Virus record (IMG/VR): IMGVR_UViG_3300042463_000838
Coordinates: 1-34,327 of that record
Source of the DNA: a virus
Reading direction: 5' to 3' (one strand)
Length of the DNA: 34,327 nt
Part shown: in pieces, positions 4,516 through 33,183 of the stretch
Layout: each line of letters starts with the position of its first letter
Position numbering within the stretch: position 1 is the first letter of the stretch
Made by a program: the position numbers and the translations under genes
Notes under the pieces: model-generated
Databases searched by the model: none
Told to the model about the DNA's origin: nothing
Seen by the model: the letters and a program-made list of their open reading frames with translations, nothing else

Positions 4516-6125
4516 ACATCCGCGTTCAGGGGCCTGACGGCGTAATTCTGGAATTTCCAGCTGGGACCGATCCGGGTGTCATGAAGAGCGCGATGCAAAA
4601 GCGCTATGGTGGGCCGCAGCAAAAGTCCATTGCGCAGACCCAGGCGATGCCGGATACGGGCTCGGCGTCAACAATGGATGGATTCCTACCCGTTGACACG
4701 CAGGGCGCTATAGCCCCGCCTCAAGGCACGGGTATTGGCGAGGAGTTGCGCCGCCTTGGTCGTAGCGCAGATGACGCGGTGCGCGTCGGCGCGAACGCCA
4801 TGACATTCGGCCTTGCGGATCGTTTTGCGGGCGCGATGACGGGCAAAGGAACCGAGGGTGAGCGCGCCGTCACAAAGGGCTCCCGTGAGCGTCTCGGCCC
4901 GGTTGCCTCGACGGCCATTGATATTGCGGGCGGCGTCTTGCCCGGGGTGGGGCTCGCCAAGGCGGGCATCACGGCGGCGCGTGCCATCCCGCAAGCGGGA
5001 CTTCTCGGCAGGCTTGGGGCTGGCGCAGTGGATGGCGCGGCACTCGGCGCGGCAAACGCGCTCGGTTATGGCGAGGATGTCCAGCAGGGCGCGCTTATGG
5101 GCGGCGCCGGCGGCGGTGCGGGCGCTCTTGCAGGTGAGGTGCTTTCCGCTGGCATGCGTGGGCTTGGCCGCGTCACGCGCCCAGCTGCCCCGGCCGCGCC
5201 GTCGCTTGATGACCTCAAGATGCAGCAAAAGGCGGCTTACCAAGCATTTGACGACATCAACCCGATTTACGATGCGAAAGAGCTTGCCGCCGCGCAAGCA
5301 AGGCTTCAAGGGCGATTTGCTGAAATGGGCGCTGACCCAGCCTTGCAGCCCAAAGCCTTTGTCACCTTAAACAGAGTTGCTCAAGACGTTGAATCCGGCT
5401 TGCCTGTTACGGGTAAGGGTCTTGAGACAATCCGCAAGGTTGCGGGCAATGCTTACGACCCCATGAACCCGTCAAGCAATTTGCTCGTGAAGGCGGTGCA
5501 GGGCGAAATTGAGGGGATTATGGGCAATCCCGGCGCGGCCATCTCTGGGGACGCCAAGGCGGCGGCTGATGCTGTTGCCCAAGGGCGTGAATTGACAAAG
5601 CGCATCAAAAAACAAGAGATTGTCGATCAGCTTCTTGAAAAGGCAAACATCCGCGCTGATCGAGCCGGATCGGGCGGCAACATCGATAACGCGACGCGCC
5701 AAGAACTTTCCAAGCTTCTCGACCCCAAAAGCAAACAAGGGAAGATGTTCACCGAAGACGAGCGCGGGGCCGTTCGTGAGCTGGTAAAAGGCACGCTTGC
5801 GGGCAACATTATGCGGGGCGTCGGAAAGCTCTCCCCCCAGGGATCGGGCCTCATGTCAGCGCTTGGCATCGGCGGCGCTGTAGCCAATCCCTTAGCAGCC
5901 ATCCCCTTTGCGCTCGGTGCGGCCGCCAAACCCATCGGCGATAAAATGACGGAAAACAGCGCGCGGCGACTCGGTGAACTCATTCGCGCGGGCGGGAGCA
6001 AAGAGGCAGCATTCGGCACACCAAACATGCTTGAACGCATGGGCACTGACAACCGTGACGCTATTGTTCGAGCCCTCATGATGTCAGGCGCTATCGCTGC
6101 CCCCGGAATCGTATCCAACCGCTAA
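4512..6125 (+). CDS. Large internal virion (ejection) protein candidate
   Basis: 537 residues, ATGA overlap with the upstream transglycosylase gene. It opens with NIRVQGPDGVILEFPAGTDP, a short beta motif often seen at the N-terminus of podovirus internal proteins. Residues about 140-220 form a Gly/Ala zipper-like stretch (GLLGRLGAGAVDGAALG, ALMGGAGGGAGALAGEVL), with another hydrophobic Ala/Gly segment near 430-470. Both could enter a membrane. The remainder is helical and charged. These traits and the position suggest a channel-forming ejection protein working with the preceding protein. No catalytic motif is visible, and the family cannot be named. Confidence 0.6.
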   Translation: MNIRVQGPDGVILEFPAGTDPGVMKSAMQKRYGGPQQKSIAQTQAMPDTGSASTMDGFLPVDTQGAIAPPQGTGIGEELRRLGRSADDAVRVGANAMTFGLADRFAGAMTGKGTEGERAVTKGSRERLGPVASTAIDIAGGVLPGVGLAKAGITAARAIPQAGLLGRLGAGAVDGAALGAANALGYGEDVQQGALMGGAGGGAGALAGEVLSAGMRGLGRVTRPAAPAAPSLDDLKMQQKAAYQAFDDINPIYDAKELAAAQARLQGRFAEMGADPALQPKAFVTLNRVAQDVESGLPVTGKGLETIRKVAGNAYDPMNPSSNLLVKAVQGEIEGIMGNPGAAISGDAKAAADAVAQGRELTKRIKKQEIVDQLLEKANIRADRAGSGGNIDNATRQELSKLLDPKSKQGKMFTEDERGAVRELVKGTLAGNIMRGVGKLSPQGSGLMSALGIGGAVANPLAAIPFALGAAAKPIGDKMTENSARRLGELIRAGGSKEAAFGTPNMLERMGTDNRDAIVRALMMSGAIAAPGIVSNR

Positions 6126-10631: not shown

Positions 10632-11105
10632 GTGGCCCGGTCAAGAAAGATTCTGATCGCAGCCGGACTTCTGGCGCTGCTGACGGCCTGCGAAAGCTTG
10701 CCCGATGAAAAAGCTTTGGCGGTGAATGATCCGGCCTTTGATCCAGCGAGAAGCTGGAAGCCCCGCGCTGCGTTGCCGCCTTCGCCTTGGATTCAAGATC
10801 GTCTAGGTCAAGCTTGGTCATGCGCGGACCTCCTTCAACAGTCTGGCGTAGGTTTCAGGGCCAACGATCAGCGTGTCGCCATGCATGAACGCATCGACCT
10901 CACGCTTCACGTATTTAATGCGCTGGGGATGACCCATTTTCAGGCGACGTGCATTTCGTCCGGTCAAGCGGTCGAAGACCATTTTCCGCACATGCGGAAA
11001 ATGGTCTTCGACCATGCGCGTCATATTCGGGCTGACAATAACCTTCATGCCAAGGATGCTCATGTTTCACCTTTCAGAAGGGAGGCGGAGAGCATGGCGC
11101 GATAG
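10632..11105 (+). CDS. Lysis-cassette lipoprotein (o-spanin-like), 3' part chimeric
   Basis: A GTG start 4 bases after the previous stop gives MARSRKILIAAGLLALLTAC, a lipoprotein signal peptide with the lipobox LTAC (Cys at residue 20). The next about 40 residues are polar and Pro-rich (PRAALPPSPW), as in outer-membrane spanin components. The frame then runs on for nearly 100 residues across the oppositely transcribed genes below 11063, including the palindrome at 10970-11013. That tail looks like antisense of real genes, not native protein. Expected length would be about 60-80 residues, so the natural stop seems to have been lost at a module junction near 10770-10820. The signal peptide is clear; the 3' end is doubtful. 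Confidence 0.5.
   Translation: MARSRKILIAAGLLALLTACESLPDEKALAVNDPAFDPARSWKPRAALPPSPWIQDRLGQAWSCADLLQQSGVGFRANDQRVAMHERIDLTLHVFNALGMTHFQATCISSGQAVEDHFPHMRKMVFDHARHIRADNNLHAKDAHVSPFRREAESMAR
10768..10821 (-). pseudogene. 5' remnant of a leftward early gene
   Basis: The ATG overlaps the stop of the leftward gene at 10818 (ATGA). The first 17 or so codons read MTKLDLDDLESKAKAAT, which resembles the N-terminus of common phage proteins of the form LDLDxLExLAKAATPGPW. The expected PGPW does not follow. Instead the frame continues as low-complexity antisense of the lipoprotein and membrane genes to 10555. I read it as the last leftward gene cut by fusion to the lysis cassette. The family resemblance is from memory. 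Confidence 0.4.
10818..11063 (-). CDS. Hypothetical small basic protein
   Basis: 81 residues, last intact gene of the leftward operon. It is coupled to the previous gene through ATGA, with AAGGTG upstream. It has no recognised domain; it is Lys/Arg-rich and probably mixed alpha/beta (MKVIVSPNMTRMVEDHF, DTLIVGPETYARLLKEV). Residues 17-29 are encoded by the palindrome at 10970-11013, so the opposite strand encodes nearly the same peptide. It might be a small nucleic-acid-binding protein, but nothing shows this. Confidence 0.6.
   Translation of the reverse strand: MSILGMKVIVSPNMTRMVEDHFPHVRKMVFDRLTGRNARRLKMGHPQRIKYVKREVDAFMHGDTLIVGPETYARLLKEVRA
10970..11013. repeat. 44-base perfect inverted repeat inside a gene
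   Basis: Two perfect 21-base arms (GGTCGAAGACCATTTTCCGCA-type sequence, 10970-10990 and 10993-11013) are separated by only CA. No T tract follows on either strand, so it is not a standard terminator. It lies near the point where lysis and leftward operons converge. Confidence 0.95.
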
Positions 11106-11353: not shown

Positions 11354-11939
11354 GGCTGCTCTCCTGATTGGAGGATAGGGCGAGGAGGTCGGGATCGCCT
11401 GATCCTAAAAGGCCGATTTCACCATTCGGCCACCACCAGCGGCCCCAGTCATCACTGTCATGATACGTGCTACCGTAGGCCCCGGAACTGCGCCGCATCG
11501 GCCCCACTCTCTCCCCGCTCGCCGTCACATAGAACTTCCCGGCTTCAAGGCGGAAATCAGCGGGCTTGTGGATACGGTAGGCGATGATGTCGCCGGATAA
11601 TCCAATACGGCTCCACCGCATGTTGATGGCATCGATCGGGGAGTTGATCACACCATTAACCAGCATGCACTCCACCACGGTTCCGCTCGCCACCGGACAC
11701 TCCCCCCCGCGCCAAGGAATCGCGAGCCAAGGAATGAAGTCTTCGGGGATGGTTGAAGTAGGAATTTGCACTTTTTGCAAATTGCTCTCAGCCTTCACCC
11801 GCACCGCCTCTGCGGCTTCAAGGGCGGAGCGCATGTCAGCGCGAAGGCTGAACCAATCAACAAAGAGCAAGACTTCATCCCATTGCCCAACAAATGCCTC
11901 GCACGCGGCCTCAACCATTTCATCCGTTACCGTGCTCAT
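11346..11939 (-). CDS. Hypothetical phage accessory protein
   Basis: 197 residues. The ATG at 11939 overlaps the upstream stop (ATGA) and has GGAGGA 4 bases before it, so the much longer open frame to 12140 is not used. The N-terminus (MSTVTDEMVEAACEAFVG) again carries the EMVxAA helix of its neighbour. The middle (PWRGGECPVASGTVVECMLVNG, DIIAYRIHKPADF) and the segment EAGKFYVTASGERVGPM form beta-rich modules frequently found in small phage proteins. The C-terminus is Trp/Gly/Asp-rich. Function unknown; a mosaic of small domains is likely. Confidence 0.7.
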   Translation of the reverse strand: MSTVTDEMVEAACEAFVGQWDEVLLFVDWFSLRADMRSALEAAEAVRVKAESNLQKVQIPTSTIPEDFIPWLAIPWRGGECPVASGTVVECMLVNGVINSPIDAINMRWSRIGLSGDIIAYRIHKPADFRLEAGKFYVTASGERVGPMRRSSGAYGSTYHDSDDWGRWWWPNGEIGLLGSGDPDLLALSSNQESSHD

Positions 11940-12151
11940 GTCTCCTCCATTGGCTGGGGCTGGTGTTCGCGGCAGGATAGCGAGGCATACGTAAGCGGCC
12001 TTCCGACTCTCAGGTCCCCCTTGTCGCCTCCATAGGTAAACCATCCCCCAACGGGAGGGTTCAGCATACACTGCCCCGCCCCGGGAAAATCGCGATGAAT
12101 CCCCTCTGGGAGATCCGCAAACCATCGGCACGTCTTGCATGTGTCAGACAT
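11936..12151 (-). CDS. Small Cys-rich protein, zinc-ribbon-like
   Basis: 71 residues. The ATG at 12151 forms TGATG with the upstream stop, and GAGGTG lies 5 bases ahead. CKTCRWF, GQCMLNPP and LSCREHQP supply four spaced cysteines, a pattern that could bind one zinc ion. Such short CxxC...C...C proteins are common in phage early operons without a known role. The first codons (MSDTCK) lie within a repeated DNA border that recurs at 13381-13422. Confidence 0.65.
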   Translation of the reverse strand: MSDTCKTCRWFADLPEGIHRDFPGAGQCMLNPPVGGWFTYGGDKGDLRVGRPLTYASLSCREHQPQPMEET

Positions 12152-12180
12152 CACATCACCTCACGTTCCGGCTGGGGGTA
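12141..12180 (-). repeat. Gene-border repeat, copy A
   Basis: Shared core reads (leftward) CCCCCAGCCGGAACGTGAGG then TGATGTGATGTCTG. It spans the end of the 12151-12396 gene (ending PEREVM) and the start of the 11936-12151 gene (MSDTCK), and supplies the GAGGTG ribosome site. Confidence 0.8.
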
Positions 12181-12396
12181 AGCCTCAAGCGCCTCTCTGC
12201 CATTCGCGGTGATCCTGAAGACGCGCCCGCTCTGAGTGCGCGTTGAGACAATCATCTCTTTCTTCCAAAGAGACGCCTCTGCCGCTCGGTGGTAGCCCTT
12301 GAACCGCGACATAAGGGTGTGACCCCATTCCGTGATCCGCTGAGGCGCATCTTCAATTGCGCGCAGAAACTCGATTTCTCGCTTGCTGAGTTTCAT
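12151..12396 (-). CDS. Small winged-helix-like protein
   Basis: 81 residues, coupled to the upstream gene by TGATG. The sequence KLSKREIEFLRAIEDAPQRIT, then AAEASLWKKEMIVSTRTQSGRVFRITANGREALEAY, follows the helix-turn-helix plus beta-wing order of small winged-helix (MarR/DUF-type) proteins, with the typical ITxxGREAL ending. It could bind DNA as a minor regulator. The last five residues are encoded by border repeat copy A. Confidence 0.65.
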   Translation of the reverse strand: MKLSKREIEFLRAIEDAPQRITEWGHTLMSRFKGYHRAAEASLWKKEMIVSTRTQSGRVFRITANGREALEAYPQPEREVM

Positions 12397-12650
12397 CACA
12401 GCACCCGTTCCGAAAGGATGGGGTTTTCAGCACGCTTCCAATGCGTCGGCCCGCCATGCTCAGCCGTGCCGTTCCACGTCACGGAGCCGTCAGGCGCAAC
12501 CCACATGCCTGTCTTGTCGGGGAAGAAGCCATTCCGTTGAATGTGGCCCCATTGCATCGGCCATATTTCTTGCGGCTCACCGTCTTCCATCCATGTAAGG
12601 AAAACAACGCTGCCGTCCTTCGGCGCGGTTTCAATCGGTTGCCATTCCAT
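12396..12650 (-). CDS. DUF551-like protein
   Basis: 84 residues, starting at the ATG that overlaps the upstream TGA. It opens MEWQPIETAPKDGSVVFLTW, the hallmark of DUF551, a small beta-rich phage/prophage family of unknown function, and continues with Trp-rich strands (IWPMQWGHIQRNGFF, HGGPTHWKRAENPILSERVL). A second, longer DUF551 gene lies at 14236-14712, and the two share DNA-level borders. Confidence 0.8.
   Translation of the reverse strand: MEWQPIETAPKDGSVVFLTWMEDGEPQEIWPMQWGHIQRNGFFPDKTGMWVAPDGSVTWNGTAEHGGPTHWKRAENPILSERVL
12402..12430 (-). repeat. DUF551 3' border repeat, copy 1
   Basis: A 29-base segment covering the codons for PILSERV matches 14242-14270 with one difference. Each copy ends a DUF551 gene. 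Confidence 0.8.
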
Positions 12651-12676
12651 CACATCACCTCATGTTCCGGCTGGAG
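12650..12676 (-). repeat. Gene-border repeat, copy B
   Basis: Core identical to copy A apart from one base (CAT for CGT). It ends the 12650-13075 gene (PEHEVM) and precedes the DUF551 gene start. Confidence 0.75.
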
Positions 12677-13075
12677 GGGGCGCAACTGCTGTGCGGCCTT
12701 CACAAGATCATCAAGCGCCCAACCAATGTTTGCGGGCCGCGAATTTTCGCCCCATGTTTCATCGGCGTTGCCCGGTGTATTCAGCAAGAGACCCCATGCT
12801 GTTTCACCAGTCCTTTGGTCAACAATAGTCTTCTCAAGGGCCACCATCATATTAATGCGTGAGCACAGGCGTTTGATGTGCCCAAGCGGGTCGCCCGCCC
12901 CGCCTGAAATTGCAGAGACAAGGAAATCAGCCTGGAATGGGTGCAAACCTAAGCCTTGATTGAAGGCTCCACTGGCGTCTTTCATGCCGGTTGTCAGCAT
13001 GGCCCGAACGCCATCCGCCTTGATCTTATCGAGCTTGTCAATTTCGCGAAGCACTTGAAGGCGAACATCAGACAT
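12650..13075 (-). CDS. Hypothetical phage protein
   Basis: 141 residues, starting at the ATG preceded by GAGGTGATGTG. The N-terminal half is helical (VRLQVLREIDKLDKIKADGVRAML). The middle has GAFNQGLGLHPFQADFLVSAIS and the C-terminus is acidic to polar (WGENSRPANIGWALDDLVKAAQQL). No known domain was recognised. It lies between two border repeats (copies B and C), so it looks like an exchangeable unit of the operon. Confidence 0.65.
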   Translation of the reverse strand: MSDVRLQVLREIDKLDKIKADGVRAMLTTGMKDASGAFNQGLGLHPFQADFLVSAISGGAGDPLGHIKRLCSRINMMVALEKTIVDQRTGETAWGLLLNTPGNADETWGENSRPANIGWALDDLVKAAQQLRPLQPEHEVM

Positions 13076-13101
13076 CACATCACCTCACGTTCGGGTTGGG
13101 G
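13069..13101 (-). repeat. Gene-border repeat, copy C
   Basis: Core CCCAACCCGAACGTGAGGTG with TGATGTGATGTCTG. The upstream gene (13085-13360) ends inside it in a different frame (RPPTRT) from copies A and B. Confidence 0.75.
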
Positions 13102-13360
13102 GGCGTCGCTTTGGCTTGCCCCCGCGCTGCTTACGCAAATGCACTAGCACGAATTCCAGAATGACGATTGGGTCATCAGGAACTTCCTTATCAGTGAAGC
13201 CAGACAGAATGCCAGAAACGCGCCCCGCCATGTTTGTCATCAGCAAAAGGCTGAATTCGATTTTGTCCGCCTCTGTTTCCAGCAGAAACAAACTATCGAA
13301 AATGGCGCGCTGAATCTTCGCATCAGCGTGCGTAACAAGATCTTTGACCAATGTCTGCAT
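13085..13360 (-). CDS. Hypothetical helical protein
   Basis: 91 residues. The ATG at 13360 (TAATG with a mini-frame stop, GGAG 7 bases upstream) is preferred to the ATG at 13384. It is helical with a hydrophobic core (FDSLFLLETEADKIEFSLLLMTNMAG), an acidic PDDP turn and a strongly basic tail (RKQRGGKPKRRPPTRT). The basic tail may contact nucleic acid; function is unknown. Confidence 0.65.
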   Translation of the reverse strand: MQTLVKDLVTHADAKIQRAIFDSLFLLETEADKIEFSLLLMTNMAGRVSGILSGFTDKEVPDDPIVILEFVLVHLRKQRGGKPKRRPPTRT

Positions 13361-13395
13361 TACACCACTCCATAAGATTTGCATGTGTCAGACAT
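13360..13395 (-). pseudogene. 11-codon remnant MSDTCK... of a Cys-rich gene
   Basis: The mini-frame MSDTCKSYGVV followed by TAA starts exactly where the 11936-12151 gene starts relative to the border repeat, and shares MSDTCK with it. It appears to be the cut-off beginning of a second copy of that gene. It may now serve only as a leader for the next gene. Confidence 0.5.
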
Positions 13396-13422
13396 CACCC
13401 CACCTCACGTTCCGGGTGGGGA
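13381..13422 (-). repeat. Gene-border repeat, copy D
   Basis: Longest match to copy A, including the TCTGACACATGCA bases beyond the junction. The upstream DUF5131 gene ends inside it in a third reading frame (TRNVRWGDV). Confidence 0.8.
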
Positions 13423-14236
13423 ATTCGTTGTGCTCGACGCCATCGAGCAGGCGACCGGCGCGAGCCTTGCCGACAGCGTGCAGCGGCAGTTGTTCGATGT
13501 GCCAAATCCCCTTTGATGTTGGCAGTGCCAAATAAGGGTTATGCTCCCACTGACACTCCGGGAACCACTCACCCCATTGCTTGAAGAAGAACGACATGCC
13601 ATGAGCGGCGCATTGGTCGCGCAACGAGCGCGCCCAATCCGGGTGCATGGGCCGCGCGCCGGGGCCGCTCTCCCCGCCCGTGATGATCCATGACGGCATG
13701 ATGTCGGCGGGGATAGGCCCGAGGTCTTCAAGCAGCGGCTCTGCCGACCAAAAGTGAACGACTGCGGGGATCGCTTTCAGCGCCTTGCCGCGCCGAAGCA
13801 TCTCCTCGCGGTTCTCCGTGCTCACACCAAGCCAGACATTGTGCCAGCCATTGCCCCAGTCAGGCGGCAGCATCTTCGCGATGTTCGGCGGGCGCTTCGT
13901 GAGGAGAAGCCAGTCGAGGTGTGGCGTCGCGCGGATCAAGCGGAAAAGGTCTTCCCGCCATTCGCTTGGCACCTGATTGTCAAAGACGTCCGCAAGTGAT
14001 GAGCAGAAGACGCGGTAGCGGATGCCATTCTCCCCCGCCTCGCGGTTCCAGATCAGCGGCTTCCGCCGATTGGCCTCGGTCGTGAGCCGCCTCTGACCTT
14101 CCCAGAGCGCCCCGTTCCCCGTCCGCTTCGCCCAGCCCTCCGCATAGCAATGGTCGCATGCAGGGCTGATCTTCGTGCAGCCGGTCCAGTGGTTGTGCGT
14201 GTGGTCGGTCCACTCGATCTTAGAGTTCTCAGCCAT
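13388..14236 (-). CDS. Phage Gp37/Gp68 family protein (DUF5131)
   Basis: 282 residues. MAENSKIEWTDHTHNHWTGC starts the family signature, with C20, C27 and C30 (GCTKISPACDHCYAE) arranged as a CX6CX2C metal or iron-sulfur-type site. FCSSLADVFD, LDWLLLTKRP, NVWLGVSTEN and WIITGGESGPGARPMH complete the expected blocks in order, with KQWGEW near 230. In some family members the fold resembles radical-SAM TIM barrels, but a function is not established. The C-terminus (LLDGVEHNEFPTRN) is intact, ending in border repeat D. It lies next to the attP-like tRNA fragment and looks like cargo. Confidence 0.85.
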   Translation of the reverse strand: MAENSKIEWTDHTHNHWTGCTKISPACDHCYAEGWAKRTGNGALWEGQRRLTTEANRRKPLIWNREAGENGIRYRVFCSSLADVFDNQVPSEWREDLFRLIRATPHLDWLLLTKRPPNIAKMLPPDWGNGWHNVWLGVSTENREEMLRRGKALKAIPAVVHFWSAEPLLEDLGPIPADIMPSWIITGGESGPGARPMHPDWARSLRDQCAAHGMSFFFKQWGEWFPECQWEHNPYLALPTSKGIWHIEQLPLHAVGKARAGRLLDGVEHNEFPTRNVRWGDV

Positions 14237-14712
14237 TACATCACCCGTTCCGAAAGGATGGGGGTTTCAGGAGGGCTCGGCAGGGGCATCCAGTGGGTAG
14301 GTCGGAACTCATAAAGGCTGGCCCACAGCGTCCAATCGGATCGCCATTCTTCCTTTGTTGCGGCGTCATCACGGACCCATCCCCATTCACCATTTGCAAG
14401 CAGGGCTTTTACATGTTGCGTGCTTTCATAGCGGCCATTCAGCCGAAAACAGATGCGGCCTTCGCCGGCGTATTTTGCAGGCCAGACTTCCCGATCATGG
14501 TTCAGCGCAATGAATGGGCGGCCATCCTTGGGAGCGGTTTCAATCGGTTGCCACTCCGCGTAAAGTGGGCGTTCCGAAACCGTGTAGGATTCAGGAGCCT
14601 TGTTTTCGGAACAGGGCGTTGATACGACAAGCGGGCCTTCCGGCCTGTCACGCCGGAGGTCGCGGGTTCGAGCCCCGTCTCCCGCGCCATTCTTTTCAAT
14701 AGGTTGCGTCAT
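14236..14712 (-). CDS. Chimeric DUF551-like protein with attP-encoded segment
   Basis: 158 residues. The ATG at 14712 has AAGGAAGG about 6 bases upstream and is preferred to the ATG at 14748. Three parts can be seen. Residues 1-30 (MTQPIEKNGAGDGARTRDL) are largely antisense translation of the tRNA-Asp fragment at 14640-14689. Residues about 38-52 (PESYTVSERPL) resemble the C-terminal border of a DUF551 gene. From EWQPIETAPKDG onward it is a DUF551 domain with Trp-rich strands, ending PILSERVM. Integration at the tRNA-like core would cut the gene. The true protein may be only the DUF551 part, but no standard start codon precedes it. Confidence 0.6.
   Translation of the reverse strand: MTQPIEKNGAGDGARTRDLRRDRPEGPLVVSTPCSENKAPESYTVSERPLYAEWQPIETAPKDGRPFIALNHDREVWPAKYAGEGRICFRLNGRYESTQHVKALLANGEWGWVRDDAATKEEWRSDWTLWASLYEFRPTHWMPLPSPPETPILSERVM
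14242..14270 (-). repeat. DUF551 3' border repeat, copy 2
   Basis: Matches 12402-12430 with one difference and encodes the last residues of the DUF551 domain. A weaker third version lies near 14571-14595 inside the same gene. Confidence 0.8.
14640..14689 (+). other. attP: tRNA-Asp 3' half, probable attP core
   Basis: The plus strand holds a complete anticodon arm (CCGGC, loop CTGTCAC with anticodon GTC, GCCGG), the variable loop AGGTC, a T arm (GCGGG TTCGAGC CCCGT), the acceptor 3' strand CTCCCGC, discriminator G and CCA. No D arm or 5' acceptor precedes it. A tRNA 3' half in a phage is the usual signature of an attachment core for a tyrosine integrase that targets that tRNA gene. No integrase gene is recognisable in this window. 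Confidence 0.75.
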
Positions 14713-14927: not shown

Positions 14928-15134
14928 TCACTCCCAGTCTTCGGCATCGGCAAGCCTTTGAGCGTTGCGCGCAATTGCCAATTTCTGAACCGGCGTAAAT
15001 GTTGACCAGATGGCCTCCAATTCGCCTCCGACGTAATTGCGCCAATCATGAATTTGGCCAGCGCTTTGAAAGCCGGGGCAATCAATGTTGCCAAACTCCG
15101 CCATAAACAAAGCCCACGCCCTTTCGTCAGTCAC
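14928..15134 (-). CDS. Hypothetical small protein, first gene after a leftward promoter
   Basis: 68 residues starting at GTG, chosen because AGGAGG lies 6 bases upstream. It is mostly helical (TDERAWALFMAEFGNIDCPGF, PVQKLAIARNAQRLADAEDWE) and acidic. No domain was recognised. It is the first gene downstream of the promoter at 15158-15186. Confidence 0.65.
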   Translation of the reverse strand: MTDERAWALFMAEFGNIDCPGFQSAGQIHDWRNYVGGELEAIWSTFTPVQKLAIARNAQRLADAEDWE

Positions 15135-15157
15135 AATCAGCCTCCTATTTGCCCCGC

Positions 15158-15186
15158 ATCATGCCCACAATCTGCCTATGTGTCAA
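15158..15186 (-). promoter_or_regulatory. Sigma-70-type promoter, leftward
   Basis: Perfect -35 TTGACA (15186-15181), 17-base spacer and a -10 of CATGAT (15163-15158), about 24 bases before the GTG of the 14928 gene. It would drive the distal leftward genes independently of the control region at 22 kb. The rest of the gap to 15266 shows no gene. Confidence 0.55.
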
Positions 15187-15266
15187 GCCTAGCGTGTGGG
15201 CTTTTTCGACTTATCCCGCCTTGCCGACTTCCGCGCATCCAGCATCATCGCGGGCGCGGGGCATGG

Positions 15267-15698
15267 TTAGTCGCGTTCCGCCATGGCTCGGCAAAAGACC
15301 GCACAAAGGGCAAGGGCAGGCGTTTCAGCATCGGCATAAATAGCAGTTCTTACCTGCCTCAAGGTGAGTGACGCCGCGATCTTGTCCTTTGCTGGGGTCG
15401 GGTCTAGCATGGCTTTTGTCCCGATTTCACGCCGCAAAACCGCCCACTTGCTATCCGGAAACTCCCTCTCGATCAGCGCCGTGATGTCGTCGAGGGAGGC
15501 GGTATAGCGCGGAGCATCCCATGTATCCCCCGACTTGTTTGAAAAACGGGACTCAAACCCGCGTGTCTTGCCAGCGGTGAAGCCTTTTGGAACATCGCCA
15601 AGTGCTATAGAAATTGCAGCATCAATTCGGTAATCCGGCCGCGTAGCCTTTTTTATTCGCTCAGCAAGAGAGAGCCATTCTTCGCGCGTCGTGCGCAT
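15267..15698 (-). CDS. Hypothetical phage protein
   Basis: 143 residues. A perfect AGGAGG 6 bases before the ATG at 15698 marks the start; the earlier ATG at 15722 overlaps the previous stop but would put this ribosome site inside the gene. It contains EEWLSLAERIKKATRPDYRIDAAIS, APRYTASLDDITALIEREFPDSKWAVLRRE and a C-terminal TPALALCAVFCRAMAE. This is a recognisable layout of a widespread phage family of unknown function in alphaproteobacteria. Confidence 0.75.
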   Translation of the reverse strand: MRTTREEWLSLAERIKKATRPDYRIDAAISIALGDVPKGFTAGKTRGFESRFSNKSGDTWDAPRYTASLDDITALIEREFPDSKWAVLRREIGTKAMLDPTPAKDKIAASLTLRQVRTAIYADAETPALALCAVFCRAMAERD

Positions 15699-15718
15699 CG
15701 CATTACCTCCTATGTTTG

Positions 15719-15952
15719 TCATTTATAGATCGCATACGGGTCGATCACATAGTTGGCCGGGAGGCGACTGATATCGAGCTTCCTCCCCACCCTCTCAAAG
15801 AACTCCTCAACGTCCTCCAAAGTGGCCATGAAAGCGCTGAAAGCCCCAAGGCCCTCGTCGGAAGCCACCCACCAGAAGACCCCATTATCGCCGATCTCGA
15901 TGGCATCCCATGAGCCATCTTCAAAATCCCGGTTTGTTGCCAGGCGCTTCAT
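15719..15952 (-). CDS. Hypothetical small acidic protein
   Basis: 77 residues, ATGA overlap with the upstream gene. It is beta-rich at the start (DAIEIGDNGVFWWVASDEGLG), then has an acidic helix (FMATLEDVEEFFERVGRKL) and a Pro/Tyr-containing tail. No family was recognised. Confidence 0.65.
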   Translation of the reverse strand: MKRLATNRDFEDGSWDAIEIGDNGVFWWVASDEGLGAFSAFMATLEDVEEFFERVGRKLDISRLPANYVIDPYAIYK

Positions 15953-16098
15953 TTCCCCGCCCTCACTTCCTCAGCGGCCTTTTTTAAGTCAGCCGCGATC
16001 TGTTCATAAATCTCTTTCATCTTCTGACACGTAGCCTTTGCTGCTTTGTCAGACGCAAAATCGGAAAGGCTAATAAACATTTCGGAAAATTCATTCAT
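15949..16098 (-). CDS. Small helical protein (49 aa)
   Basis: 49 residues. GGAGGG 7 bases before the ATG at 16098 selects this start over the longer open frame. It is almost entirely helical with heptad-like spacing (ATCQKMKEIYEQIAADLKKAAEEV), so it could form a coiled coil. It overlaps the genes on both sides. Confidence 0.6.
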   Translation of the reverse strand: MNEFSEMFISLSDFASDKAAKATCQKMKEIYEQIAADLKKAAEEVRAGK

Positions 16099-16360
16099 CG
16101 CCACGCCCTCCAAACAAAAACCGCCAGGCGCGAACAAAGATTCCACTGCGGTATGGGGGCGTTGGCTTATATTCATATAACTGCGCCTCGGGGCCGCAAA
16201 GTCCACGATGCGGCAAACGCTCTGTGCTAACGTAGTCGCCTCGAATTGCGCAGTTCCAAAAACGAGGCTCTTGGTTTCGATTAAGCAAAAGCCTACAATC
16301 AGCGCAGGCGCGCGTTTTTGGCTTGTCTTGCGCGGTTGCTATGCGAATAACATCACTCAT
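16091..16360 (-). CDS. Small Cys-rich protein
   Basis: 89 residues. The ATG at 16360 lies 5 bases after the previous stop, with AAAGG upstream. CADCRLLL, FWNCAIRGDYV and GLCGPEAQLYEY give four cysteines likely to bind one metal ion, followed by a Trp/Arg-rich C-terminus. It belongs to a common phage type without a known role. Confidence 0.65.
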   Translation of the reverse strand: MSDVIRIATAQDKPKTRACADCRLLLNRNQEPRFWNCAIRGDYVSTERLPHRGLCGPEAQLYEYKPTPPYRSGIFVRAWRFLFGGRGDE

Positions 16361-16364
16361 TGCA

Positions 16365-16706
16365 TCACCTTTCCACAATTGTTCCGTTCAGCTTCCGCTT
16401 CAGACGGCTGTTGCGCCCGAAGGGAAGGGGACTTCTGGATTCCGGCATCGCCCCGATATGCCGGTCACGCTGGCGCTCGGCCTTGCGCATCCGGCGGATA
16501 TCGTCAGCCGTCTTGGACTTATGGCATGGCGTGCAAAGCCATTGGCCGTTTTCGATCACGCTTTCCCCGCCAAGTTCGACCGGAAGAATATGATCCGCGT
16601 CGCCTTCACCAACTTTGAGCTTGGCACCGCATTTCTCGCAACGTCCATTGGCACGGAGGGCGATCTTAGCGCGATCCTTGCGTTTGAAATTGTGGGCGCG
16701 GCTCAT
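16365..16706 (-). CDS. HNH endonuclease
   Basis: 113 residues, ATGA overlap with the upstream gene. CEKCGAKL (C23, C26), DADHILPVELGG with the catalytic D38-H39, ENGQWLCTPCHKSKT (N53, C58, C61, H62) form a complete HNH nuclease with a structural zinc site. Such stand-alone enzymes nick or cut double-stranded DNA; in phages they take part in recombination, packaging or homing. Between a small gene and NinB it may process recombination intermediates. Confidence 0.85.
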   Translation of the reverse strand: MSRAHNFKRKDRAKIALRANGRCEKCGAKLKVGEGDADHILPVELGGESVIENGQWLCTPCHKSKTADDIRRMRKAERQRDRHIGAMPESRSPLPFGRNSRLKRKLNGTIVER

Positions 16707-16990
16707 GGCTGTCCCGCTCGGTAGTGCTGCATTTCTGCGCTATCGTCTGGGAGGACGGTCACAATTATCTTGCGGTTTTTGTCATACAAAACAGCCATTT
16801 CTGGCAAATCTTCGATCTGCACGACATGACAGCGGATAGCCAAGCTTCTGTTAGCATCCGGGAGCGGAATGCTTTTGCCTGACACGATCTTTTCGACCAT
16901 TTTCGCTAGCTTTGCATTGCCAATGAAAACCCCGTATCGCTCAAATGCACGCTGGCAAGCGTGACGTTGACGCCATTTTTTAACGCTCAT
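16703..16990 (-). CDS. Hypothetical basic protein
   Basis: 95 residues. The ATG at 16990 has GGAGG upstream and lies beside the NinB stop. An N-terminal basic helix region (SVKKWRQRHACQRAFERYG) is followed by a beta-rich half (LAIRCHVVQIEDLPEMAVLYDKNRKIIVTVLP), a layout like small RelE/DUF4258-type folds. No catalytic set can be confirmed, and no antitoxin is adjacent. Confidence 0.6.
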   Translation of the reverse strand: MSVKKWRQRHACQRAFERYGVFIGNAKLAKMVEKIVSGKSIPLPDANRSLAIRCHVVQIEDLPEMAVLYDKNRKIIVTVLPDDSAEMQHYRAGQP

Positions 16991-17376
16991 GCATCCTCCC
17001 AATGGAATTGAATGCCGCGCTTTGCCGCAAAGGCATGGATAAGCTCGATCAGATTGATCATTTCCTCCACGCTCAAATCAGATGAGCGCGTGCCGAGGTT
17101 CACAAAGCCCGAGCCGTCAAGGTTCGGAACGATGCGCATTTCGGCTTTCAGACCAGAGAGAAAGAGAAGCTTCCAGTTATCAGGCGATAGCTTGACGCCA
17201 TGCCAATCCGTTTGCAGGGCGATATCGGTCAGCATGGCCCAAAGGCGGGAGTTCTGAGGTAACGTGCGCTTCTGTGCCTTGATCTCGACACGCGAGAATT
17301 GAGGCGCGGCACGGACTACGCGCAAGGCTTCCTCGCGCTTTCGCTCGCTGGTGATTTGGACCATGTAGCGGGTCAT
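16987..17376 (-). CDS. ninB: Recombination protein NinB
   Basis: 129 residues. QKRTLPQNSRLWAMLTDIALQTDWHG, LSPDNWKLLFLSGL, VPNLDGSGFVNLGTRSSDLSVEEMINLIELIHAFAAKRG match the NinB (Orf of lambda) family along its whole length. These proteins bind single-stranded DNA and SSB and help load a recombinase in place of RecFOR. Its neighbours (SSB, annealing protein, Gp157) support this role. Length is typical for the family. Confidence 0.85.
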   Translation of the reverse strand: MTRYMVQITSERKREEALRVVRAAPQFSRVEIKAQKRTLPQNSRLWAMLTDIALQTDWHGVKLSPDNWKLLFLSGLKAEMRIVPNLDGSGFVNLGTRSSDLSVEEMINLIELIHAFAAKRGIQFHWEDA

Positions 17377-17382
17377 GACATT

Positions 17383-17892
17383 TCAAGCCTTTGCTGAAGC
17401 GCAAGTCACTGTAGGTTCCGGCGATGGCGGCGGGCTTTGTGATGATAAGTCCATTTTTTCGTTGGCTACTGCTATTTTTGCCGCTTGCCCTTTAGCGAAT
17501 GGAGAATTTTTGCCCGTTCTAGATTTGCAGTATTCAATAAATTTCGGCATGTTGAGGTTTTCTTTTTGCGTCCCCCAACGAAGATTTTTCGGCGCGTTGT
17601 TCAGGGAATTTTCGTCCAGATGCAAAACAACGGCCCTTGGGAATGACGGCGGCCCATGAAACGCCTCGCAAACAAGCCTATGGACTTTATAATTTTTACC
17701 TCTGTAAACAATCCCAAAATAATAATGTTTGGCGTTTTTTGACGCACGCCGCTTCCCCCCGCTCACCCATTTTGTTTGGTATTTTCGCGCACCTCCATAA
17801 GGCATCTGTGCTGATGCCTCTGGAAGCTTGATTTCGCCAAAAGAGTTTGCAAACGCTCCGGGGATCGACGGGATTGGTAAAATTTCAATCAT
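17383..17892 (-). CDS. HNH homing-type endonuclease
   Basis: 169 residues. KVHRLVCEAFHG (H71), VVLHLDENSLNNAPKNLRWGT (H91, N98/N99) and QKENL form the HNH_3-type nuclease core typical of free-standing homing endonucleases. The N-terminus (SFGEIK, HYYFGIVYRGKNYKVHR) is the usual preceding strand region. Codon use is visibly more AT-rich than the flanking ssb and ninB genes, and a hairpin marks its border with ssb. It is likely a selfish insertion between recombination genes. Confidence 0.85.
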   Translation of the reverse strand: MIEILPIPSIPGAFANSFGEIKLPEASAQMPYGGARKYQTKWVSGGKRRASKNAKHYYFGIVYRGKNYKVHRLVCEAFHGPPSFPRAVVLHLDENSLNNAPKNLRWGTQKENLNMPKFIEYCKSRTGKNSPFAKGQAAKIAVANEKMDLSSQSPPPSPEPTVTCASAKA

Positions 17893-17905
17893 GCCTCACC
17901 GTGCC

Positions 17906-17932
17906 TTAGAATTGATACGGTGTCAATTCTAA
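17906..17932. repeat. Inverted repeat at the ssb/HNH border
   Basis: Perfect 10-base arms (TTAGAATTGA and TCAATTCTAA) with a 7-base loop overlap the ssb stop codon, 14 bases before the HNH start. No T tract follows. It may limit translation of the HNH gene or mark its insertion point. Confidence 0.85.
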
Positions 17933-18411
17933 AATGGAATTTCGTCTGACAGATCGTCACGCATGTTTGTCGCCTGCTTCCTGCCGGCCTTCGCATCGGC
18001 ATAGCCGTTGCGCGGCGGGGTGGAATCGCCCTCGGGCCGCGCGTCGTCGTCGCGGTCCCCCTTGCTGTCGAGCAGGGTGATTTCACCGCGATAGCGCTGC
18101 AAAACAACTTCGGTGGAATAGCGCTTCTGGTTGTCCTTGTCGGTCCATTCGCGGGTTTGAAGCTGGCCTTCGATATAGACCTTCGAACCCTTGCGCAGAT
18201 ATTGCTCGGCGACCTTGGCGAGGTTCTCGTTGAAGATCACCACCGAATGCCATTCGGTCTTCTCGCGGCGCTCGCCGGTCTGCTTGTCGCGCCAGTTCTC
18301 CGAGGTTGCAATGCGCAGGCTAACAACTGGCTCGCCATTGCCCAGGCGGCGCACTTCAGGATCGCGGCCAAGATGGCCGATGATGATAACCTTGTTGACA
18401 GAACCGGACAT
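17929..18411 (-). CDS. ssb: Single-stranded DNA-binding protein
   Basis: 160 residues; the ATG at 18411 forms TAATG with the upstream stop, and the longer open frame to 18510 is not used. [43 protein letters not shown] and [19 protein letters not shown] form a complete OB fold. A flexible Asp/Arg/Pro-rich linker leads to the acidic tip DDLSDEIPF that recruits partner proteins. It coats single-stranded DNA during phage replication and recombination. Confidence 0.95.
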
Positions 18412-19061
18412 TATGCGGCGGCTTTCTGCTTGCTCGTGGCAAGCGCTTTGAGGGATTCGTGATGGGGAAGAAGAAGCGCGCGCTCGTCGGCGGTTGTGTC
18501 GTGCTGCCAAAAGTTACGGTAGGCATCCATGCCGCCGCGCGCCCGATTGACTGCGGTTTCCCACAAATCGACGGGAACACCCTCGGGCGGTTCTTCATTT
18601 GCGATGGCAAGCGCGGGCGGGGCGCTAACGGGGGTGACAGCTTCCCCGCCCGGCTTCCGCGCGGGTGGCGCAGAAGGCTGTTTGAAATCGTCGGCCTCGT
18701 CTTCCGAGTAGAGGCCATGCAGGCCGCACAACTTAAGGATCACGCGGTCCTTGGCGCGCTTCTCGGCCATGGCAAACGGGTAGGCCGCTTGCTTCCCGCT
18801 GACGCGGTAATTCACATTGATCAGCGCTTCCCCGATGGACCATTCGGTGCGCTTGTCGAGTTCGCCGGTCACGAGGATCACGGCTTCCTCGCGCTCACTG
18901 CGGAGAACCTGAGGCGCATGCCAGACGATGCCAGCGGCGGCTGCAAGGCGCTCTAGGGCCTTGTGCTTGATGACGGTGGCGCTCTGCACGCTCCAAACGT
19001 CATCGCGCTCCAGCGGCGCCCCAAACTTGTTGAACAGGGTCTTGATATCGTTGTTCGTCAT
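18411..19061 (-). CDS. Probable single-strand annealing protein (ERF/Rad52-like)
   Basis: 216 residues, TGATG start with the Gp157-like gene and TAATG with ssb. The core runs [70 protein letters not shown]. The last block resembles the AMAExRAKxR helix of ERF/Rad52-type annealing proteins. A Pro/Ala-rich linker and helical C-terminus follow. Its place between Gp157 and ssb is the normal one for a phage recombinase. Related proteins are often left as hypothetical, so the role is likely but not certain. Confidence 0.6.
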
Positions 19062-19570
19062 CAGCGCACACTCACAATGGGGTTGCCGGTCACAAGGTCA
19101 GCACCAGGAAGCTCAGCGCCATTGCGCAATGCCTCCTCGATGGCTTCCTTGTCAGGTTCATAGGAGCGGACTTCGCGCATGTATCCTTGCGCATTGAAGC
19201 CGGGTTCAATCACAAGCCGCTCGTTACCGGGGCGAACCGATACGGAGCCCTCTGGCAGGCGAACGGAGGTTTGCTTGGAGTCGGCCATCAGCGCGGTAAT
19301 GATGCGCTCAGCGGCCCGTTTCTCGCGTTCTGCAATGACTATGCGTCCATCGTAATGCGCGGCAACTTCGGCCTTGGCGTGCTTGGCTCCGGCCATGTCA
19401 GCCTTTGCCCGCTCCCGCATGCGAACGGCACGGGATAGAACGCGGTGAAAGTCCGTGGAGCCTTCAAGCATGTCGGAAATAAGCTCCGACAACACCTGTC
19501 CATCTTGCGAGCAAAGCTCAATAATGGTTGCGATCTCAGCACGGACAGCGGCAAGGGTGGCGGGGTTCAT
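19061..19570 (-). CDS. Gp157-like recombination-associated protein
   Basis: 169 residues with GGAGGA before the ATG. A long helical first half (DMLEGSTDFHRVLSRAVRMRERAKADMAGAKHAKAEVAAHYDGRI) is followed by a small beta-rich domain (TSVRLPEGSVSVRPGNERLVI) and SYEPDKEAIEEALRNGAELPGADLVTGNP. This matches the Sipho_Gp157 layout, including the PDKxxIxxALxxGxxxxGAxL end. The family occurs next to phage annealing proteins; its biochemical role is not established. Confidence 0.75.
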   Translation of the reverse strand: MNPATLAAVRAEIATIIELCSQDGQVLSELISDMLEGSTDFHRVLSRAVRMRERAKADMAGAKHAKAEVAAHYDGRIVIAEREKRAAERIITALMADSKQTSVRLPEGSVSVRPGNERLVIEPGFNAQGYMREVRSYEPDKEAIEEALRNGAELPGADLVTGNPIVSVR

Positions 19571-19896
19571 GGCGCGTCCTCCGGGCCTCCGGCAGGGATA
19601 AGAGCGGCGAGGAAATCGGCTTCAACTTGAGCTGCTTTGCGAAAAGCCTTTAACGTGTCCCCGTGATAGGCATCGCACGCAGCAAACCATGGACTGCCGA
19701 TGCAATTTGGGTATCCAGTTGCCTGCATCACCGGGCAGCGTTCGCAGTCTGGTTCGTCGCCTGCCTTCTCCGTTAGAAGCACACATAAGGGGCAATCTTC
19801 CGCGTAAATGCGCGCATTTAATTTGTTCAGAACGTTTGCATTCCGACGCCATTTCTCCACGCTTGCAACAAGCGCATCGTATGTCTCGCGATTCAT
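19567..19896 (-). CDS. Small Cys-rich protein
   Basis: 109 residues, ATGA overlaps on both sides. CPLCVLL, CERCPVM and YPNCIGSPWFAAC hold several cysteines suited to a zinc site, and the ends are helical. Proteins of this type are common in phage early operons next to recombination genes; function unknown. Confidence 0.65.
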   Translation of the reverse strand: MNRETYDALVASVEKWRRNANVLNKLNARIYAEDCPLCVLLTEKAGDEPDCERCPVMQATGYPNCIGSPWFAACDAYHGDTLKAFRKAAQVEADFLAALIPAGGPEDAP

Positions 19897-21441: not shown

Positions 21442-21515
21442 GCCAGCACACTCGCTGCCCAAGCCGCGCCCCAAAGAAAAACGGTGAAGGTGAGGAATTC
21501 GAAAAGGGAGGGCAT
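21438..21515 (-). CDS. 25-aa hydrophobic micropeptide
   Basis: MPSLFEFLTFTVFLWGAAWA then ASVLA. The start forms TGATG with the upstream stop and its stop forms ATGA with the next start, so translation would be coupled on both sides. AAGGGAGG-type purines do not precede it, so expression would rely on reinitiation. The sequence could make one membrane span. It fills an otherwise unexplained 74-base gap in a tightly packed operon, which supports it. Confidence 0.5.
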   Translation of the reverse strand: MPSLFEFLTFTVFLWGAAWAASVLA

Positions 21516-26258: not shown

Positions 26259-26718
26259 GCGTGGCGAAATGAAGATGGCCATTCGGGCCTATCTGATGGC
26301 CTTGGAAGGCATCGAAAGCGAGTTTGTGGCTCAGGCCGTCAAGCGGTTCATCCAAGGCAATGTTGATCGCCCCAGGTATGGGTTTTTGCCATCGACAGAT
26401 GAGCTTGCCAGAGAGGCGCGCCGGCTGAGCGATGATGAGCGGCGTAGGCGGACCTATGCACTGCCGCCGCCCCCGAAGGAACAGCCGATTGTGTCGGCAG
26501 AGGAGCGCGCCAAGGTATCCGCCTTGATGGATATGCTTGCCGAGAGGATGGCACAGAAATTCTCAAAGGCGGGGCGCTACACGCTGCCATCGGCTTCTGG
26601 CCTGACGCCTGACGAAGAACTGGACCTAGCCTTGAAGCGGCTAGCCGACACTGCCCCATCTGCCGAGGCCTTGGCCCGGCTTGGACTGCAACTCAACAAC
26701 GAAAGGAATCCAGCATGA
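26194..26718 (+). CDS. Helical protein, possible helicase-loader-like
   Basis: 174 residues from the ATG at 26194, overlapping DUF1376 by 65 bases; the longer open frame to 26032 is a shadow. LDSLEALFSAFPAGERGEMKMAIRAYL, IESEFVAQAVKRFIQGNVDRPRYGFLPSTDELAREARR resembles the helical N-terminal fold of phage helicase loaders of the G39P type. Position after an initiator gene fits. The rest is helical with a Pro-rich linker. The role is an inference with limited support. Confidence 0.55.
   Translation: MVRGPTILDSLEALFSAFPAGERGEMKMAIRAYLMALEGIESEFVAQAVKRFIQGNVDRPRYGFLPSTDELAREARRLSDDERRRRTYALPPPPKEQPIVSAEERAKVSALMDMLAERMAQKFSKAGRYTLPSASGLTPDEELDLALKRLADTAPSAEALARLGLQLNNERNPA
26691..26718 (+). repeat. 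Rightward gene-border repeat, copy 1
   Basis: ACTCAACAACGAAAGGAATC then CAGCATGA; 26 of 28 bases match copy 2. It encodes LNNERNPA at the gene end and gives an AAAGGAA ribosome site to the next ATG. Confidence 0.85.
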
Positions 26719-27155: not shown

Positions 27156-27326
27156 ATGACCCGCAAGTTTTGCGACCTCACCGCCAAAGGCCGCAAATAC
27201 GAAAAAGACGGTCAGAAGAAAGATTGGGCCTCAATAGTTTCTGAGGAAATTTGTGAGCGCTACACAGGCCTTGAAGCTTCGGAAGATTTGAAGGCGAAAC
27301 TCAACAACGAAAGGAACGCAGCATGA
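27156..27326 (+). CDS. Small basic protein (56 aa)
   Basis: 56 residues with GAGAGG 5 bases before the ATG and an ATGA overlap with the XRE gene. It is charged (TRKFCDLTAKGRKYEKDGQK, KDWASIVSEEICERYTG) and ends LNNERNAA, encoded by border repeat copy 2. No family was recognised. The clear ribosome site and coupling make it a likely real gene. Confidence 0.65.
   Translation: MTRKFCDLTAKGRKYEKDGQKKDWASIVSEEICERYTGLEASEDLKAKLNNERNAA
27299..27326 (+). repeat. Rightward gene-border repeat, copy 2
   Basis: 26 of 28 bases match copy 1 (26691-26718). A shorter 14-base match (GGAATCCAGCATGA) recurs at 27770-27783 before the 25-aa gene. Confidence 0.85.
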
Positions 27327-31031: not shown

Positions 31032-31049
31032 AGAGGTGATCTCATGGCC
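31032..31049 (+). repeat. Start-site repeat, copy 1
   Basis: AGAGGTGATCTCATGGCC holds the ribosome site and start codon of the 31044 gene; the identical 18 bases recur at 31301-31318. Confidence 0.9.
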
Positions 31050-31301
31050 ATATTAAAAACTGGCGATAAAATCAGGTCGATAAAAGACGGCACGGTTTTA
31101 TGCGTTGTCAGCCGAGACATTGAAGAAGGTTTCCTCCTTTCGCGGGATGATTTCGATTGGCGCATAAACCGTCCGATTGACGGCGAAACCCTATTCGATG
31201 TCTGGCGAGACGCGATTGCGGAATTTGTGTCCATCGGACGAACCAATTCATTCCTCGTCAGGGTCAATGATGATTACCAGAAAATCGTTTTTGGAACCTA
31301 A
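31044..31301 (+). CDS. Hypothetical small protein
   Basis: 85 residues. AGAGG upstream of the ATG. TGDKIRSIKDGTVLCVVSRDIEEGFLLSRDDFDWRIN then FVSIGRTNSFLVRVNDDYQKIVF is beta-rich and resembles a small SH3-like barrel. It is the first gene rightward of the divergent promoter gap. Function unknown. Confidence 0.6.
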   Translation: MAILKTGDKIRSIKDGTVLCVVSRDIEEGFLLSRDDFDWRINRPIDGETLFDVWRDAIAEFVSIGRTNSFLVRVNDDYQKIVFGT

Positions 31302-31318
31302 GAGGTGATCTCATGGCC
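31301..31318 (+). repeat. Start-site repeat, copy 2
   Basis: Identical to 31032-31049 and provides the same ribosome site and ATG for the 31313 gene. Confidence 0.9.
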
Positions 31319-31885: not shown

Positions 31886-33183
31886 CGCTGCCCTATGCGC
31901 CGCGTGGTGTGTTCCTCCCATTTCATGAACGTAAGCAGCGATGGGCTGTGCTTGTGGCTCACAGACGCGCTGGCAAGACGGTCTCGACGATCAACGACAA
32001 GATCAGGCGCGCGATAACGACGGATAAGGCGAATTACAGGGCGGCCTATGTCGCGCCGTTCTTCGTTCAGGCTAAAGACATCGCGTGGGACTACCTGAAG
32101 CGATATGCAGCACCGATCATTGCCGACAAGAACGAAAGCGACTTGTGGGTTGAGTTGATCAACGGCGCAAGGATCAGGCTCTACGGTGCCGACAATGCGG
32201 ACAGGTTGCGCGGCGGCTATCTGGATGACGTGACGATTGACGAGCCAGCGGATATGCGGCTGGCGACTGTATGGGGTGAGATCATCCGCCCCATGCTTGC
32301 TGACAGGCAGGGGACGGCAACGTTTATCGGGACGCCGAAAGGACGAAACGAGTTTTACAGCCTTCACGAGCGGGCGAAGGCTGACCCTGAAAACTGGTTT
32401 TGCTCTGTCCTGAAGGCGAGCCAAACGGGGCTTTTGGCCGACAGCGAGCTTGATGCTGCCCGCGCAGAAATGACGCCTGAGCAATATGCCCAGGAGTTCG
32501 AATGTTCGTTCGATGCTGCGATTCTCGGAGCCTACTACGGTTCAGACATTGCCCGCGCCGAGCGCGAGGGGCGCGTTGGCATGTTCCCGCTTGATCCCCT
32601 TTTGCCTGTGCATACGGCATGGGACTTGGGCATTGGGGACAGCACGGCCATCTGGCTATGGCAGGCGGCTCCTGATGGGCTTCGCGTCATTGGACATATC
32701 GAGGACCACGGCAAGGCTCTGCCGCATTATGTGGGCGAACTGTCCGCCCTTGGCTATCGCTACGGGCTGGACTTCGTTCCGCACGATGCAAAGGCGCGAG
32801 AGCTTGGAACCGGGCGCACTCGCGTTGAGACGCTGATCGGCCTTGGTCGAAAGCCTCAGCTTGTGCCTGCTCACACGGTTGAGGATGGGATTAACGCACT
32901 TCGCGTGATGTTCCCGCGTATTCGGTTTGATGCTGAAGCGACCAGGCACGGGCTGGAGGCGCTTCGCCAATACCGCACGGACTTTGACGAAAAGACCAAG
33001 GCGTTCAAGAACACGCCGCGGCACGATTGGACAAGCCACAGCGCCGATGCCGCTCGCTATATGGCGATTGCGTATCGCGACATGGTTGCCCCGCCAAAGC
33101 CCGTCAAGAAGCCCCAGCCCTTGGGCTCAGTTATTCTGCACGGCCCGCCTGAAGCACCACGAGGCGTAAGGATCAAGATATGA
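31864..33183 (+). CDS. terL: Terminase large subunit
   Basis: 439 residues. LVAHRRAGKT (30-39, a Walker A variant), GGYLDDVTIDEPAD with E127 (Walker B) and TATFIGTPKG (151-160, coupling motif) form the packaging ATPase. TAWDLGIGDSTAIW (D254), PHDAK (D308) and HSADAARYMA (D395) supply the RNase-H-like nuclease acids. The enzyme cuts concatemeric DNA and pumps it into the capsid through the portal. Length is typical. The stop overlaps the portal start (ATGA). Confidence 0.95.
   Translation: MVEERRITLPYAPRGVFLPFHERKQRWAVLVAHRRAGKTVSTINDKIRRAITTDKANYRAAYVAPFFVQAKDIAWDYLKRYAAPIIADKNESDLWVELINGARIRLYGADNADRLRGGYLDDVTIDEPADMRLATVWGEIIRPMLADRQGTATFIGTPKGRNEFYSLHERAKADPENWFCSVLKASQTGLLADSELDAARAEMTPEQYAQEFECSFDAAILGAYYGSDIARAEREGRVGMFPLDPLLPVHTAWDLGIGDSTAIWLWQAAPDGLRVIGHIEDHGKALPHYVGELSALGYRYGLDFVPHDAKARELGTGRTRVETLIGLGRKPQLVPAHTVEDGINALRVMFPRIRFDAEATRHGLEALRQYRTDFDEKTKAFKNTPRHDWTSHSADAARYMAIAYRDMVAPPKPVKKPQPLGSVILHGPPEAPRGVRIKI

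Follow-up and report, generated by a model that had tools for sequence, protein, structure and literature searches.

The route by which individual accessory genes come into phage genomes has long been in question. Integron gene cassettes are small genes in one orientation with a common border, attC being an imperfect inverted repeat that folds as a hairpin. The ninR region of phage lambda is reportedly a chain of interlinked genes, as Kroger and Hobom are said to have described it in 1982. For lambdoid phages, short conserved boundary sequences have been proposed at mosaic joints (Susskind and Botstein 1978; Clark et al. 2001; both as cited in PMC3029335), and at most joints, according to PMC3029335, none can be found. 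The SAS/ESAS repeats (i.e. Start-Associated Sequences) of Cluster K mycobacteriophages, suggested by their authors as possible recombination targets, mostly accompany genes that follow gaps of >50 bp (PMC3203893), and similar repeats are reported from Microbacterium phages (PMC7302621). Morons are described as having their own promoter and terminator, and the same account finds no common recombinase target in the flanks of accessory genes and calls the mechanism mysterious (PMC4378225). Mosaicism is reported to leave gene order mostly unchanged (PMC2327257).

The locus described here lies in a virus record of IMG/VR that is 34,327 bp long, the full length of which is called the window. As in lambda ninR, small overlapping genes form a chain, and the window also has a NinB/Orf gene, a likeness of arrangement and gene naming. 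The lambdoid boundary sequences are, like the borders of the window, short homologous sequences at module ends, and were proposed as homologous recombination sites; as we understand them, they join alternative modules at a fixed place, whereas border A is repeated within one genome, and therefore gene order and number change. Short homology at the ends of exchangeable modules was found for border A, and joints lay inside the border sequence at six of eight synteny block ends and at loci D and E but not in five further events (i.e. F-J). The likeness to SAS consists of conserved repeats at the ribosome site and start of unrelated phage genes, mostly in one orientation; border A likewise occupies the ribosome-site position just upstream of start codons and has one orientation. 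The differences are that stop and start at border A junctions overlap or nearly so, with no gaps of >50 bp, that the sequence is another one (the 13-bp SAS consensus GGGATAGGAGCCC gave 0 matches in the window with ≤2 mismatches allowed) and that breakpoints were located at the repeats in the present comparison. As with morons, individual genes are found in some genomes and lacking in others between neighbours that stay in place, but the filled sites D and E of the window's group differ from the morons of PMC4378225, as described there, in having a duplicated joint. In the literature searched, most subscription journals being outside its scope, no account was found of phage genes whose order is permuted with the breakpoints lying in repeated stop/start joints. 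In this one phage group, repeated joints are found along with permuted order and with both filled and empty sites, a concrete case of mosaic genome formation that opens the old idea of boundary sequences to direct testing on natural sequences.

Border A in the leftward gene array

Between 14236 and 11936 the window contains a minus-strand chain of small genes that overlap end to start, in the transcriptional order Gp37 - QILW - MSDVR - MEWQ - KLSK - MSDTCK (Table 1). A minus-strand DNA repeat of ~26-43 nt, border A, was found at four junctions of this chain. The original prediction had claimed a 25-40-base repeat at four gene junctions in 12141-13422; all four copies were present on the minus strand, with none in shuffled sequences. 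The 22-nt core CGGAACGTGAGGTGATGTGATG occurred on this strand at 12149-12170, 12648-12669, 13073-13094 and 13393-13414 with 0-2 mismatches, as compared to an expectation of 0 matches (100 dinucleotide shuffles). In minus-strand reading the best form of the border is CCCCAGCCGGAACGTGAGGTGATGTGATG; its ungapped length was 43 nt and copies were 67-93% identical to the reference copy. Three TGA triplets, 5 nt apart, close all frames inside the core, and three-frame stops were present in just 67 of the 34,305 minus-strand 22-mers of the window. The border also contains the Shine-Dalgarno sequence GAGGTG and a start codon, with GAGGTG ahead of the ATG in all four copies, exactly as predicted. Stop and start either overlap or lie between a few and a few tens of nt apart. 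Pairwise comparison of the window's 52 junctions gave 8 matches at ≥22/26 positions among 1326 pairs (null mean 0.25, maximum 2 in 100 replicates).

The genes upstream of border A end in three frames (i.e. EREVM/EHEVM, PTRT and TRNVRWGDV), the last of these with one border A stop removed by two base changes. At unrelated junctions of the window and of a related contig, L087, the 28-nt border was identical at 21-27 of 28 positions, whereas the flanks matched at 4-14 of 40 positions upstream and 8-20 of 60 downstream. Protein homology was rejected as the cause of the border A repeats, since the upstream genes read the border in three frames and the flanks are unrelated; the earlier assertions of three-frame endings and of a match at the DNA level were both borne out.

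A Shine-Dalgarno sequence with a start codon is part of every border. Start-associated repeats of actinobacteriophages are described as unusually conserved and thought to act in translation initiation (PMC3203893, PMC7302621). The repeat could likewise be a selected translation or regulatory element, with rearrangement as a by-product or coincidence. We consider this unlikely. The border A copies remain alike for ~13 nt or more ahead of the Shine-Dalgarno sequence, in coding sequence that is translated in different frames; moreover, the border sequence is specific to each locus, and gene order changes at the border.

Table 1. Borders, genes and L087-matching blocks, with positions in the window
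Feature	Position	Strand	Remarks
MSDTCK cassette gene	11936..12151	-	71 aa, Cys-rich
KLSK cassette gene	12151..12396	-	81 aa; missing from L087
MEWQ cassette gene	12396..12650	-	84 aa; missing from L087
MSDVR cassette gene	12650..13075	-	~140 aa; moved in L087
QILW/MQTLV cassette gene	13085..13360	-	91 aa from ATG 13360, probably the start of the 99-aa frame (to 13384); moved in L087
Gp37/Gp68-like gene, DUF5131 (PF07505)	13388..14236	-	99.4% DNA identity to L087
Border A copy 1	12149..12180	-	KLSK gene / MSDTCK gene junction
Border A copy 2	12648..12679	-	MSDVR gene / MEWQ gene junction
Border A copy 3	13073..13104	-	QILW gene / MSDVR gene junction
Border A copy 4	13393..13424	-	Gp37/DUF5131 gene / QILW gene junction
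Border B copy 1	12394..12430	-	SERVL* / MKLSK
Border B copy 2	14234..14270	-	SERVM* / MAENS; border A at this place in L087
Block matching L087 215-455	11935..12178		95.5%, BLASTN
Block matching L087 749-1206	12648..13101		95.4%, BLASTN
Block matching L087 421-777	13068..13421		96.4%, BLASTN
Block matching L087 1173-2030	13388..14245		99.4%, BLASTN
NinB/Orf recombination mediator (PF05772)	16987..17376	-	leftward operon
Single-strand DNA-binding protein SSB (PF00436)	17929..18420	-	searched as 17929-18510
Candidate Rad52-superfamily annealing protein	18411..19061	-	low-confidence model; between SSB and Gp157
Gp157 / Mu Gam-like protein (PF05565, phrog_253)	19061..19570	-	leftward operon
Border C copy 1	26690..26718	+	LNNERNPA* / MKNPHS; identical 29-nt match in L007
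Border C copy 2	27298..27326	+	LNNERNAA* / MSKWEA
Border D copy 1	31032..31049	+	exact 18-nt repeat
MAILKTGDK cassette gene	31044..31301	+	85 aa; missing from L007, L008, L009
Border D copy 2	31301..31318	+	exact 18-nt repeat
Border E	33165..33183	+	single, between terminase and next gene, no cassette; duplicated round cassettes in relatives

Border A copy 4 continues for ~20 nt into the start of an MSDTCK gene and then breaks off, leaving a vestigial 11-codon ORF (13361-13395). This relic is ahead of QILW in the window and L087 alike, travelling with that gene, and suggests an earlier crossover inside the MSDTCK gene, of which it would be the scar. The MEWQ gene has N- and C-terminal sequence in common with a DUF551 gene.

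The N-terminal half of the MSDVR protein resembles an internal part of HisRS (44% over ~70 aa, E 3e-12, with L104, a relative named by TIGR00442), a HisRS fragment being an odd cassette gene for a phage. The DUF5131/Gp37-Gp68 gene matches the PADLOC candidate models PDC-M41B (E 1.5e-55) and PDC-M30B (3.9e-54). Near the shuffled genes, a 68-aa protein (14928-15134) matches phrog_9546 'RecX-like filament modulator' (E 4.1e-15).

Gene order and gene content in related contigs

An exact border A core was found in one contig only of the genome_contigs set (i.e. L087, 3,250 bp, from a Hyphomonadaceae MAG). The four genes common to L087 and the window exhibited 95.4-99.4% DNA identity (BLASTN), but the L087 order in the direction of transcription is x - Gp37 - MSDVR - QILW - MSDTCK. 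None of the gene adjacencies (five in the window versus four in L087) was held in common; MEWQ-KLSK, one of the window's five, permits no comparison as both genes are missing in L087. Neither outcome that the original prediction had named as contrary to it was seen, border A being repeated in both the window and L087. In the latter it stands beside the genes already known from the window, in another order, and synteny blocks break inside it. Block ends fell within the border ±6 nt in six of eight cases, although the border occupies 7.6% of the region (P ~5e-6 under a uniform null), and the other two were at the MSDTCK 3' junction and border B. With block ends forced to gene junctions the preference for borders was weak (P ~0.03; 4/7 junctions), and weight was therefore placed on the sequence identity of the joints and not on counts. 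The end of the MSDVR gene changes frame, from EHEVM in the window to PAGT in L087, and the joint upstream of Gp37 is border B in the former and border A in the latter.

No terminase relative was found in G049, the genome of L087, and apart from contig C242 this genome contained a single 71% match to the 15000-20000 region of the window; L087 is therefore a lone fragment, of either phage or chromosome. Border A was present among 60 family genomes in G049 only, with a weak 2-mismatch match in G072.

Three pattern scans of viral sequences for border A yielded 0, 1 and 1 genuine records, the sole one being L096/L097. In a relaxed border scan, eight contigs besides L096 were judged by inspection of the joints to contain unrelated stop/ribosome-site/start sequences. 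L097 (IMG/VR, 6,729 bp, with an integrase) has border A ahead of an MSDTCK allele of 42% protein identity, of which the first ~34 nt and last ~30 nt match the window almost perfectly whilst the middle is hardly alignable. It also has an extra SerRS-like gene between two AGGAGAAyAGCCATGA joints, where the window has a single joint. This gene (4893-5672) encodes a phage-borne SerRS-like catalytic core of 259 aa (PF00587, E 2.5e-30); its serS score was under the curated cut-off and the match covers profile positions 152-404 only.

Neither the MSDVR nor the QILW protein had a relative in scans of viral sequences, and searches of the phage collection with MEWQ and MSDTCK gave no match. By tblastn of loci >2000 nt other than the window-derived L001-L004, the cassette genes were absent from six larger terminase relatives (i.e. 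G009, G010, G012, G014, G025 and G038).

Other border families and right-arm loci

Four further border families (i.e. B, C, D and E) with sequences unlike border A are present in the window. The two border B copies match at 25/26 positions. Protein homology is only partly excluded as the cause of this repeat, given that 'EWQPIETAPKDG' and 'PILSERV' ends are common to the two upstream genes. The border C copies match at 24/26 positions. Adjacent to border C, the window gene at 27323-27769 and its counterpart at ~363-671 of contig L007 both start with MSKWEA and end with RKYWAVPRDEMW..NNIE, whilst the middles are unrelated; the ends are kept and the body is exchanged.

The right arm was compared with contigs L007-L013, which share long blocks of 84-99.6% identity with the window and which, as related contigs, are not independent counts. 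Locus D was empty (one repeat, no gene) in L007, L008 and L009 and filled (gene and two repeats) in the window, L010, L012 and L013, the second repeat having one mismatch in those contigs; L011 does not reach the locus. Locus E, single-bordered in the window, contained two borders and one 68-aa cassette gene in L010, L011 and L013. In L007 and L008 the 68-aa gene was joined by a second cassette, the last joint being of unrelated sequence. Genes of locus E were read in L010 and L007 and assigned by border spacing in the other contigs. The count leaves out L009, which ends there, and L012, where part of the terminase end is duplicated in an odd way that may reflect a chimeric assembly. Five other right-arm differences in gene content (i.e. 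events F-J) exhibited no border repeat at the joints read and therefore count against a universal rule. Borders of different loci have little in common beyond a stop, a Shine-Dalgarno sequence and an ATG.

As all contigs are metagenomic, and the L012 duplication is a possible chimera, the permuted orders could be misassemblies at the 26-43-nt repeats. This is highly improbable. The L087 record name contains 'k141', which by MEGAHIT convention is presumed to denote joins spanning 141 nt, longer than the repeats. The cassettes of the window and L087 differ by 0.6-5%, so one read set did not make both orders, and locus D was empty in three contigs and filled in the window and three others.

Probable recombination at duplicated gene joints

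The best explanation, with a probability of roughly three in four, is homologous (annealase-type) recombination at duplicated stop/ribosome-site/start joints, with no dedicated site-specific system. The border is the joint between tightly packed genes, closing the upstream gene in any frame and offering a ribosome site and a start. With direct repeats of this joint at several junctions, homologous exchange between copies, whether in a single genome or between phages infecting the same cell, could delete, insert, duplicate or permute a gene plus one joint as a unit. Each crossover would rebuild the joint, and neighbouring genes would therefore stay translatable. The change from QILW-MSDVR to MSDVR-QILW could come about by unequal crossing-over (duplication) and then deletion. 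The sequences themselves show the repeats, the permuted order with block ends inside them, and filled and empty sites at two other loci; we infer this path and the direction of each event, all genomes compared in detail being metagenomic contigs. Counting against the reading are the small number of genomes with border A, events F-J, the unrelated last joint of L007 and L008, and the weak preference for borders once block ends are forced to gene junctions.

Such recombination would most likely be carried out by SSB and Orf of the phage together with a Rad52-like annealase, or by host RecA. The presence of SSB, NinB/Orf, the Gp157/Gam-like protein and a possible Rad52-fold annealase makes this plausible and does not prove it. 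The low-confidence model of the candidate annealase (mean pLDDT 50.5) gave structural matches to RAD52 (Z 7.3), Sak of phage 80a (6.5), Mgm101 (6.5) and Redbeta (6.0), with a dsRBD-type row at 6.7 and unrelated folds scoring as high; a Foldseek search with this model gave no match at E ≤ 0.001. Annealases are reported to recombine short homologies in lambdoid phages (PMC3945230), and lambda Red to recombine genes that are 22% diverged (PMC2327257).

The same leftward operon contains two HNH endonuclease genes (16365-16706 and 17383-17892), whose products might cut near the borders with repair driving the shuffling. This appears very unlikely given how little beyond stop, Shine-Dalgarno sequence and ATG the different loci's borders share, and searches of the permuted part revealed no HNH gene. 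Single small genes in one orientation with a common border are also what an integron-like system recognising the border would produce. Such a system is extremely improbable: in difference from integron cassettes no attC-like fold was seen at border A, the single-stranded folding of its copies being not clearly better than that of shuffles (z 1.66, 0.81, 0.88 and -1.10), no inverted-repeat pair was present at border A among the repeats listed, and border sequences are unlike one another across loci A-E. As each locus has its own border sequence, any dedicated site-specific system is unlikely. The original prediction of a cassette system at a shared border is supported, small genes being reordered at border A in L087. 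One qualification applies: the term 'cassette system' implies a single site served by its own machinery, whereas joints differ at other loci and general homologous recombination at duplicated junctions fits better.

More tentatively, the joint might act as a self-copying universal adaptor. Short-homology annealing would insert any gene with its neighbours unharmed, and each insertion would add a second joint copy, a magnet for the next gene. If so, accessory-gene ('moron') arrays could grow, shrink and reorder wherever two phage genes meet, with no need for a dedicated recombinase. The suggested search rule is to screen genomes for stop/ribosome-site/start joints that recur within them.

Three further features of the window were observed. 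Near the meeting point of rightward and leftward genes, a perfect 21-nt inverted repeat with a 2-nt loop (10970-11013) lies at the start of the gene at 10818-11063. An 18-nt tandem repeat array of ~28 units (20867-21370) lies inside the gene at 20728-21582, and a tRNA-Thr (TGT) gene (29514-29589) is present in a variable stretch from ~28500 to 31000.
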